64,000 bases of DNA from Gemmatimonadota bacterium. GTDB lineage: Bacteria; Gemmatimonadota; Gemmatimonadetes; Gemmatimonadales; Gemmatimonadaceae. The stretch lies in assembly GCA_003134685.1 (NCBI GenBank), contig PLCA01000006.1, positions 1 through 64,000 of the forward strand, in the 5' to 3' direction. Positions 10,678 to 64,000 of the stretch are shown here, piece by piece (the stretch's first letter is position 1; each line of letters begins with the position of its first letter). Both the position numbers and the translations under genes were made by a program. The notes under the pieces are model-generated. The model saw nothing but the letters and a program-made list of their open reading frames with translations, made no database searches and was not told the origin of the DNA.

Positions 10678-10916
10678 CTGCAAAAGAACGGGGTGGGAGG
10701 CGTCAGAGGCACAGATGCCAGTTTTCAGGTCACTACGCCCGGATTTTTCTACCGCTGATCAAGGCACAAGCAACTGCCTGTACACCGAAGGCCACAGAGG
10801 CAAGTCCGGGCGTCGTGACCTGATACCTGGCAACTACGCTACTGACGCCTCCCACCCCGTTCTTTGCAGTTTGCAGTTTGAGGCTACTGACGCCTCCCAC
10901 CCCGTTCTTTGCAGTT
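10678..10916. repeat. Inverted-repeat element A with duplicated tail
   Basis: Two long imperfect inverted arms, 10678-10742 and 10805-10870, enclose a 62-base middle (10743-10804). The outer 30 or so bases pair almost perfectly (GGGGTGGGAGGCGTCAG against CTGACGCCTCCCACCCC). The middle contains ACAAGCAACTGC and CCACAGAGGCAAGTCCGGGCGT, both found again in element B. A 34-base segment of the right arm (10838-10871) is repeated exactly at 10883-10916. The element fills the gap between the converging rsgA and osmC-like genes. It codes for nothing evident and resembles no IS I know. Confidence 0.85.
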
Positions 10917-37936: not shown

Positions 37937-38836
37937 GTGATTGGGGCCGGTCGTCGGAGAAATCTCAAGCCCGGCGAGATGTTCCCAGCCGGTGAACCAG
38001 CGTATCGCGTGAGTTTTCCGCGTCTTCGCTCAGGAATAAGAATTCGCGTGGTCGAGCGGGGTGATCCGGCTTCGCCCCCGGTGGTACTCGTTCACGGGTT
38101 GGGTTGCAGCGCCTACACGTTTCACCGCAACATGCCGGCGCTGTCGGAGGCGGGATTTCGCGCGATCGCCGTGGACCTCAAAGGACATGGGTTGTCCGAC
38201 AAACCGCTCGCGAGCGAAGAGTACACTATCGAGTCGCTGGTAGTGCATCTGCGCGACATCCTCGACGTGCTGGGGCTCGAGCGTCCCGCGCTCGCCGGGC
38301 ATTCGCTTGGCGGATCGCTCATCTACCACTTCGCGGTGCGATACCCCGAGCGAGCCCAATGTCTCGGCCTGCTTTCCCCCGTCGGGCTGAGAGGTCTACC
38401 GCTGATGGGGCTGTACCGCTTTTTAACCCCGGCCGTGCTTACGCCGATAATTCGCCAGATAAATCCGAGAGTGATCGTGAAGCTCGCGCTGATGCGGGTT
38501 TACGGAAAACGCGGACATTTTACGGAACGCGATGTCGAGGAATACCTCGCCCCATCGCAGTTCCCGGAATTCTCTCTCGCGATGCGCGAGCTGCTCCACA
38601 GCTACGACTGGAACGCGGCGACTCACCGGCGGCTCGTCGCGGTCAACCTTCCGGCCGTCGCCATGTGGGGCAGCCGGGATCACATGATGCCCGACGATGG
38701 AATGGGGATCTTCACCCGGCTCCTTCCCCAGATCGTGCTGCGCGCGATTTCCGACGCGGGGCACATCATTACGGAGGAGACACCGGACGAGGTGAACGAG
38801 GGGTTGATCGGCCTATTGCGGCGAGCGGGTGTCTAA
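37937..38836 (+). CDS. Alpha/beta-fold hydrolase
   Basis: A 299-residue soluble hydrolase starting at GTG 37937. It shows VLVHGLGCSAYTFHRN (oxyanion region), the nucleophile elbow LAGHSLGGSLIY, a cap domain and the C-terminal catalytic His in ISDAGHIITEETPDEV; the acidic residue is probably in WGSRDHMMP. The family covers esterases, lipases, haloalkane dehalogenases and many others, so the substrate cannot be told. It is closely spaced after the preceding unknown gene and is followed by element B. Confidence 0.88.
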   Translation: MIGAGRRRNLKPGEMFPAGEPAYRVSFPRLRSGIRIRVVERGDPASPPVVLVHGLGCSAYTFHRNMPALSEAGFRAIAVDLKGHGLSDKPLASEEYTIESLVVHLRDILDVLGLERPALAGHSLGGSLIYHFAVRYPERAQCLGLLSPVGLRGLPLMGLYRFLTPAVLTPIIRQINPRVIVKLALMRVYGKRGHFTERDVEEYLAPSQFPEFSLAMRELLHSYDWNAATHRRLVAVNLPAVAMWGSRDHMMPDDGMGIFTRLLPQIVLRAISDAGHIITEETPDEVNEGLIGLLRRAGV

Positions 38837-38852
38837 CTGCAACAACAACTAC

Positions 38853-39041
38853 GACTGAACGGGAGGGAGGCGTCAGAGGGCATAGATGCCAGTTGTTAGT
38901 TCACTACGCCCTGACTTATCTCGATAGCGTCATGATACAAGCAACTGCTTGTGCCCTTAACGCCACAGAGGCAAGTCCGGGCGTCGTGAACTGAATAACT
39001 GGAACCTACGCTACTGATGCCTCCCGCCAGTTCAGTTGCAG
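38853..39041. repeat. Inverted-repeat element B
   Basis: Arms 38853-38915 and 38975-39041 are imperfect inverted copies, with the outer GGGAGGCGTCAG-like part matched by CTGATGCCTCCC. The 59-base middle holds a small perfect hairpin, ACAAGCA-AC-TGCTTGT, and CGCCACAGAGGCAAGTCCGG, the latter almost identical to element A. Left-arm GTCAGAGGGCATAGATGCCAG corresponds to the same place in A and C. It lies between the alpha/beta hydrolase and the helicase genes. Confidence 0.85.
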
Positions 39042-39075
39042 TTGCCCTTTGCCACCCTGGGTATATTACACGAAG

Positions 39076-40392
39076 ATGATCGAAGAAAACCTCGAGGCGG
39101 GACTCTCTTTTGACAACCTCGACCTCGCCCCCGAAGTGCTCCACGCGGTTCGCGACGCCGGATACACCCATCCCACGCCGATCCAGCAACAGGCGATTCC
39201 ACTGGCTCTGGCAGGCCGGGACCTGATCGGTCTCGCCCAGACAGGAACCGGAAAGACCGCGGGCTTCACGCTACCCATCGTTCACAATCTGATCAGCACT
39301 CCGCTCACTGCCGAGAACGGGGAACCCGTTCACCGCGTTCGCGTTCTGATCCTGACTCCGACGAGAGAGCTCGCCGCGCAGGTGGAGGAGAGCTTCCGGA
39401 AGTACGGCAAGTACACCGATCTGCGCGTCGTCCCGATCTTCGGCGGTGTTGGAATCGAGCCCCAATCCAAGGCGTTGCTGAATGGGGTGGATGTCGTGGT
39501 CGCGACACCTGGCCGGCTGCTCGATCACATGGAGCGCCAGAACGTCTCTTTTGACGATCTCGAGGTCCTGGTTCTCGACGAAGCGGATCGCATGCTCGAC
39601 ATGGGATTCGCTCCCCAGCTCAATCGGATCGTGGCCGAGATCCCGCCCTACCGGCAAACGCTTCTCTTCAGCGCGACGATGCCGCCCGAGGTCGAAGCCC
39701 TGGCGCGAAGGTATCTGCGGAAACCGGTGGTCGTGCAGGTCGGACGCCGCTCCGAGGCGGCCAGCACGGTGACGCACGCCGTCTACCCGGTGCCGCGTGA
39801 TCGAAAGAGCACGCTGCTCGTCGAGCTGCTGAAGGAAGCGAATATGGACTCGGTTCTCATCTTCACGCGTACCAAGCACGGCGCGGACCGCGTCGTCAGG
39901 CACCTCGAGGATCAGGGAATCGCCGCGACGGCGATGCACGCCGATAAATCGCAGGGTGAGCGCACGCGCGCCCTCGAGGATTTCAAGTCAGGCAAGATCC
40001 GGGTATTGGTGGCAACGGACATCGCGCAGCGCGGGCTCGATGTAAGTGGCATCAGCCACGTCATCAATTACGATGTGCCCCAGCAGCCGGAAGATTATGT
40101 GCACCGCATCGGCCGCACTGGCCGGGCCGCGGCCACCGGCGATGCCTACACCTTCATGTCTCCCGACGAGATCGCCATGGTGCGCACCATCGAGCGCATG
40201 ATCGGGCAGCAGATTCCGCGGATCTCGGTTCCCGGCTACGATTTCGGGACCACCTCGGATGTGGCTGTTCCAGTTGCAACCGAGCAGGATCCCGTGGACA
40301 TCGCCCCGCCGGTATCGATCAATGCCGAAGGCGACCCAGTCGCGACACAAAAACGGTATCGACGGACGCGTTCCGTCGCACGAAGACGCTGA
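39076..40392 (+). CDS. DEAD-box ATP-dependent RNA helicase (RhlE-like)
   Basis: From ATG 39076 the protein has 438 residues. It has the complete DEAD-box set: Q motif (GYTHPTPIQQQAI), AQTGTGKT, PTRELAAQ, TPGRLLDHM, DEADRMLDMGF, SAT, IFTRTKHGADRV and HRIGRTGRA, followed by a short basic C-terminal tail. Such enzymes remodel RNA in ribosome assembly and mRNA decay. Its last 74 bases overlap the 3' end of the pseudopilin gene on the other strand. Confidence 0.93.
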   Translation: MIEENLEAGLSFDNLDLAPEVLHAVRDAGYTHPTPIQQQAIPLALAGRDLIGLAQTGTGKTAGFTLPIVHNLISTPLTAENGEPVHRVRVLILTPTRELAAQVEESFRKYGKYTDLRVVPIFGGVGIEPQSKALLNGVDVVVATPGRLLDHMERQNVSFDDLEVLVLDEADRMLDMGFAPQLNRIVAEIPPYRQTLLFSATMPPEVEALARRYLRKPVVVQVGRRSEAASTVTHAVYPVPRDRKSTLLVELLKEANMDSVLIFTRTKHGADRVVRHLEDQGIAATAMHADKSQGERTRALEDFKSGKIRVLVATDIAQRGLDVSGISHVINYDVPQQPEDYVHRIGRTGRAAATGDAYTFMSPDEIAMVRTIERMIGQQIPRISVPGYDFGTTSDVAVPVATEQDPVDIAPPVSINAEGDPVATQKRYRRTRSVARRR

Positions 40393-63705: not shown

Positions 63706-64000
63706 CTGCAACTGAACGGGATCCGACAACGGCGAACTGAACGGGATCCGAGATGTCAGAGGCATAGATCTCAGTACGTAGTCACTGCGCTCCGACCGTC
63801 CTGAACGCGCCTCCTATTACAACAACCGACGGCTTTACCATAACGCCACCAGATACGTCTCAGCGCAGTTACTAAAACCTGGTATCTACGCTTCTCAGAT
63901 CTCGGATCACGTTCAGTTTGCAGTTTGCAGTTCGCAGTTCTCAGATATCGGATCCCGTTCAGTTCGCAGTTTGCAGTTCTCGGATTCGGATCCCGTTCAG
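63706..64000. repeat. Inverted-repeat element C with tandem tail, cut by window end
   Basis: Arms 63735-63795 and 63863-63918 are imperfect inverted copies (AACTGAACGGGATCCGAGAT against ATCTCGGATCACGTTCAGTT). The middle shares AACGCCAC and neighbouring bases with element B, and the left arm has GTCAGAGGCATAGATCTCAG at the place of GTCAGAGGGCATAGATGCCAG in B. To the right, a segment of about 40 bases ending CGGATCCCGTTCAG is repeated about three times with TTTGCAGTTTGCAG spacers up to the window end. On the left, CTGAACGGGATCCGA occurs twice. It occupies the region upstream of the thiolase gene. Confidence 0.8.

Follow-up and report, generated by a model that had tools for sequence, protein, structure and literature searches.

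Gene-less palindromes of a Gemmatimonadota genome share their arms with elements that carry a gene for the 23S rRNA intervening-sequence protein

How can a repeat change the sequence of its ends and still keep them self-complementary? Three elements (A, B, and C) raise this question in a 64,000-nucleotide stretch of DNA from a member of the Gemmatimonadaceae (Gemmatimonadota) (the window, by which we mean the whole of that stretch), which is part of contig C13 of genome G000 (a 3.63 Mb assembly, 98% complete). A first-pass annotation had proposed that the three have a core in common, that each outer arm has its matching complement in the same copy, and that pairing is kept either by selection on a hairpin or by homogenisation of the arms within each copy. 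Judging from sequence comparisons, we consider it probable (about 0.66) that A, B, and C belong, as gene-less and MITE-like copies, to a dispersed palindrome family whose gene-carrying members are IVP elements: elements with a gene of the PF05635/TIGR02436 family, the 23S rRNA intervening-sequence (S23/IVP) protein (PMC4990558). The features discussed are listed in Table 1.

Table 1. Palindromic elements of the window and IVP genes found between the same arms elsewhere in the genome.
Feature	Coordinates	Strand	Description
Element A	10686-10871	+	Full palindrome, GGGGTGGGAGGCG subfamily, intergenic
Solo right-end repeat CTACTGACGCCTCCCACCCCGTTCTTTGCAGTT	10884-10916	+	Extra, in tandem with element A; read directly
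Element B	about 38854-39043	+	Full palindrome
Element B, left terminal end GAACGGGAGGGAGGCG	38857-38872	+	
Element B, right terminal end GAACTGGCGGGAGGCA	39018-39033	-	Given as minus-strand reading; read directly
Element C	63739-63914	+	Palindrome, GGGATCCGAGAT subfamily, intergenic
Element C, additional outer left end	63714-63729	+	Tandem unit
Element C, additional outer right ends	63945-63998	-	Tandem units linked by CAGTTTG-like heptads
IVP gene between A/B arms	C11:129951-130268		
IVP gene between A arms	C12:645229-645546		
IVP gene between C arms	C12:570368-570685		

A, B, and C are imperfect palindromes, all of one large family. Read from the sequence, the outer arms of A (GGGGTGGGAGGCG and CGCCTCCCACCCC) are perfect complements and those of C (GGGATCCGAGAT and ATCTCGGATCAC) have one mismatch, while those of B (GGGAGGGAGGCG and TGCCTCCCGCCA) have three mismatches in 12, one a possible wobble; the matching complement attributed to each copy is thus exact in A, nearly so in C, and rough in B. 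The common core holds for A and B, which have an exact 18-mer in common (ACAGAGGCAAGTCCGGGC; chance expectation 0.05), and extends to C in parts only. As single-stranded DNA, element B has a folding energy of -57.9 kcal/mol, compared to -28.1 ± 3.6 for shuffled sequences (z = -8.4; none of 200 as stable), and it carries a private, uncompensated variant, GGGAGGG, where the family consensus is GGGCGGG. It is flanked by the stop of ORF 37937-38836 and the start of ORF 39049-40392, which is DEAD-box helicase-like as judged by eye. No IVP gene lies within the three window copies, no Rfam family matched the window, and a plasmid collection gave no match.

The suggestion that three copies point to a large family was borne out. 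Using element B as query we obtained 63 matches, in which palindromes are often counted on both strands, and as minimum counts the genome holds at least 28 full A/B-type and at least 22 full C-type copies; 28 and 22, respectively, were used for analysis. C-type ends numbered 88, against 0 for a reversed control pattern. C-type copies bear extra ends as inward-facing tandem units of ~30 bp, up to four per side, with left and right counts often unequal. Of the 19 genomes searched within the genus (G000 included), 9 contained A/B-type copies; none of the 42 genomes searched outside it did. Among the individual copies, L038:900-1059 has its centre swapped for another GC-rich, terminator-like hairpin (AAACCCGCCTGAGCGGGCTT).

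The first-pass annotation had missed the gene inside the split copies. In three copies of G000 a PF05635/TIGR02436 gene sits in the loop (Table 1), scoring 92-106 bits against Pfam PF05635 (curated cut-off 33.8) and 89-101 bits against TIGR02436 (cut-off 24, exceeded by all three). Gene-less and IVP-carrying copies have their arms in common. The family has solved relatives (2gsc and 2rld), and the loop protein is a four-helix bundle related to Avd, a protein of diversity-generating retroelements (DGRs). Long inverted repeats surround all seven IVP genes of G000 and, across the genus, 31 of the 31 IVP loci with adequate flank (29.7-163 bits, compared to a maximum of 28.3 bits at 300 random window positions); four further loci, cut by contig ends, have no inverted arms and stand outside this count. 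The arm sequences around these genes belong to families unrelated to one another (five arm groups), and the similarity of the arms correlates with that of the IVP proteins (Mantel r: 0.38; 0/5000), so that each arm type is inherited together with its clade of IVP. G002 (assembly 93% complete) has ~20 palindrome matches and no PF05635 match, making it a possible case of a genome with orphan gene-less copies; palindromes with no detectable IVP gene there indicate that copies can persist without one. A further IVP copy (L102:1469-2096, corresponding to C5:600968-601595) has a broken reading frame in G000, with a two-piece Pfam match, and its orthologue in G014 has an internal deletion near the start of the IVP gene; this looks like decay.

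We also fetched 80 IVP loci from many phyla (L245-L324). Their flanks show a 7-bp periodicity (0.36 at lag 7, compared to 0.256 at distance) that is gone 700 bp off, and AGY-N4-AGY falls mainly on one strand left of the gene and on the opposite strand right of it. Such inverted AGYNNNN arrays flank IVP genes in Chloroflexota, Bacteroidota, Acidobacteriota, Cyanobacteriota, and others. Swapping flanks between loci is a poor null, because unrelated loci have the heptad motif in common, and we therefore took distant flanks of the same loci as control. Of the 54 loci outside Gemmatimonadota, 44 had inverted-repeat scores above the 95% control level and 35 above the 99% level (p = 4e-27), with one control value, 76.8 bits, an unexplained outlier.

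Relatives of G000 show that sites are variably occupied, and that subfamilies or half-elements are exchanged at fixed sites. Both flanks of 20 sites were common to G000 and G014 (1.12 Mb of G014), mostly at 91-97% identity, and there G014 often has another subfamily, a remnant, or nothing. L002 is unchanged (97%); L001, L014, L020, and L033 hold another subfamily or a strongly different element, L020 being A/B-type in G000 and C-type in G014; L006, L011, L016, and L038 are remnant or absent. Since the relatives' assemblies are fragmented metagenome bins, calls of a different element beside gaps (L033 and L105) are weak. At the site of element A, G014 keeps a left-end remnant only. The site of element B is more varied: a palindrome with different arms in G014 (flanks 96%), a third kind of palindrome in G009, a right-end remnant in G002, and just CTGCAAGTTGCAGTT in G016. 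Orthologous sites with 92-97% flanks can hold different subfamilies. Where a site is empty or nearly so (L108 in G009 and the element B site in G016), we found no clear target-site duplication.

The first-pass annotation had called for a genome-wide test of arm covariation, which gave a strong excess between subfamilies and a weak one within the A/B group. When the 50 copies were aligned jointly, 170 cells were changed on both sides, compared to 74.4 ± 9.5 in shuffles (0/500), and 96.4% of cells were paired, compared to 87.8% (0/500); the covariation vanished once the partner was shifted by one to three columns. Within the A/B group alone, 16 two-sided cells were observed against 7.2 in shuffles, involving only 5 of 33 pairs. 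As the excess within A/B is small, the covariation mostly reflects differences between whole subfamilies.

Could the arms of a copy instead be kept alike where they stand, with a replication fork or repair tract switching template between them and copying one-sided changes across? Template switching has been put forward to explain palindrome arms that evolve in concert in other systems (PMC6649704), and several of our sites look the part. At L108 the core is similar in G000 and G014, yet the outer arms are A-type in one and C-type in the other, switched on both sides, and in G000 GGGATCCGAGATCTCAGAAGC pairs 21/21 with the right arm (read from the sequence). L118 has a private two-sided change (GAATGGGATCC/GGATCCCATTC). 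At L025, where four species have a common core, the inner arm of G016 differs on both sides (GCCGGGACTT/AAGTCCCGGC compared to GCCCTGACTT/AAGTCAGGGC), as homogenisation within each copy would have it. The same locus, however, shows a half-element swap that speaks against it: the left arm of G014 agrees with A-subfamily copies of G000 at 49 of 62 positions, with its own right arm at 43, and with the orthologous left arms at 31-37. Because this arm matches A-subfamily copies best, L025 points to exchange with a copy elsewhere in the genome rather than to template switching within the copy. Several sites differ over the whole length of the element, two-sided changes within A/B are few, and uncompensated variants persist, both in element B and as a GGG/GTG mismatch in many C copies. 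Comparing pairing within copies to pairing across species, site by site and pooled over 12 loci, gave p = 0.07, short of significance. The left end unit of L105, present once in the compared stretch of G000, occurs three times in the G014 orthologue (L175), and these units have the same private GAGTTGTC change, absent from the right arm; this is a tandem expansion without compensation. Overall, the covariation is better accounted for by dispersed copies exchanging sequence than by pure homogenisation within copies, which we regard as unlikely.

Still less likely is a hairpin kept by selection for a function in RNA or DNA (transcription end, RNase III site, or mRNA stability), with subfamilies as old variants that arose by compensatory evolution. 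The folds are very stable (RNA parameters give -109 to -122 kcal/mol), the window copies are intergenic, and the pairing in 96% of cells is what such selection would maintain. But no site needs its hairpin, because the corresponding sites of close relatives are empty or hold remnants; moreover, nothing of the family turned up in the genomes searched outside the genus, and whole elements have been exchanged, between flanks of 92-97%, faster than stepwise compensation would allow.

It is equally improbable that the family is an ordinary MITE of a DDE insertion sequence, with the IVP gene as a passenger. The gene-less copies are short, multicopy, and bounded by terminal inverted repeats, traits that bacterial MITEs also show (reviewed in PMC10969869). 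However, no transposase was met between matching ends in a search covering Y1 transposases. The joint inheritance of arms and IVP speaks against a passenger, and inverted arms of unrelated sequence around IVP genes in many phyla would not be expected of one.

Repeats of REP/REPIN type moved by a RAYT (Y1) transposase, which are likewise dispersed extragenic palindromes with structured ends, are highly improbable here, as PF01797 has no match in G000 (98% complete) and matches in only 3 of 19 genomes of the genus, and the units measure 160-190 bp compared to 20-40 bp.

Under the preferred reading, that of a palindrome family with IVP-carrying members, each subfamily would have spread from its own self-complementary source, so that the arms would appear to covary. 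Existing ends (AACTGCAACTGAAC...) may serve as landing or exchange points, in which case occupied sites would be recycled, perhaps via ectopic recombination or hairpin-templated copying. The IVP protein might bind the hairpin arms and help spread in trans; profile searches of G000 returned neither a Y1 transposase (PF01797) nor an RVT_1 match. Weighing against this reading are the lack of a clean target-site duplication, the palindromes of G002 with no IVP match, and the absence of an IVP gene from A, B, and C. It is possible, if doubtful, that the IVP (S23) genes of bacteria at large all belong to a single broad class of mobile elements, whose common mark would be architecture and not sequence: self-complementary arms with a 7-bp period around an Avd-like protein that would copy hairpins into ends already present. 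The 23S rRNA intervening sequences (IVS) would then be a special case, in which the element came to lie in an rRNA loop.

It has long been asked by what means rRNA intervening sequences move and what role the widespread S23/IVP protein plays. With at least 50 gene-less copies and seven IVP genes in G000, and comparable sites in sister species, both questions become testable. Inverted heptad arms, which flank IVP genes in many phyla, also offer an easy mark by which such elements can be found. In the open-access literature searched we found no description of dispersed IVP palindromes or heptad arms, which is no proof of novelty; IVP genes have been reported in cas loci, and the accessible part of that report makes no mention of arms (PMC3936711).

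Several known systems resemble these palindromes in part. In G000 we detected neither the Y1 transposase that would place them with REP/RAYT nor the reverse transcriptase that would place them with DGRs. ERIC sequences are long extragenic palindromes, comparable as short non-coding palindromic intergenic repeats. Bacterial MITEs and REPINs (PMC3116915) are such repeats too, and also come in subfamilies. Unlike them, our family has IVP as its partner gene, with no transposase partner found, and tandem inward-facing end units. Avd, an accessory protein of DGRs, resembles PF05635 and has been called homologous to it (PMC10053308); unlike DGRs, however, G000 showed no template or variable repeat. 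The insertions in rRNA genes of CPR bacteria with 23S_rRNA_IVP (PMC11270868) involve the same protein family, and their sites, mostly at the top or base of stem-loops, are common to gene-carrying and gene-less insertions. They lie in rRNA, mostly with homing endonucleases, whereas the palindromes here are intergenic.

The closest likeness is to the IVS of 23S rRNA in Leptospira and Coxiella (PMC4990558), where complementary ends form a stem and a PF05635 gene lies in the loop, and where gene-less and gene-carrying versions, a patchy distribution, and an obscure mechanism of mobility are likewise found. The complementary ends form a stem in our family as well, and an S23/IVP ORF occupies the loop in the three copies with these arms, though not in A, B, or C. 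Insertion in an rRNA helix was not found: the window copies lie between protein genes, and the sole 23S gene of G000 (C12:359667-362632; 2,966 nt) is matched end to end by the Rfam model, leaving no room for an IVS. An A/B palindrome (L031, C12:363041-363224) lies ~400 bp downstream of this gene. Because of their location we do not file the palindromes as 23S IVS. Unlike these, they are present in many copies between protein genes, and their sites are recycled by different subfamilies; they are an IVS variant outside rRNA, mostly gene-less.
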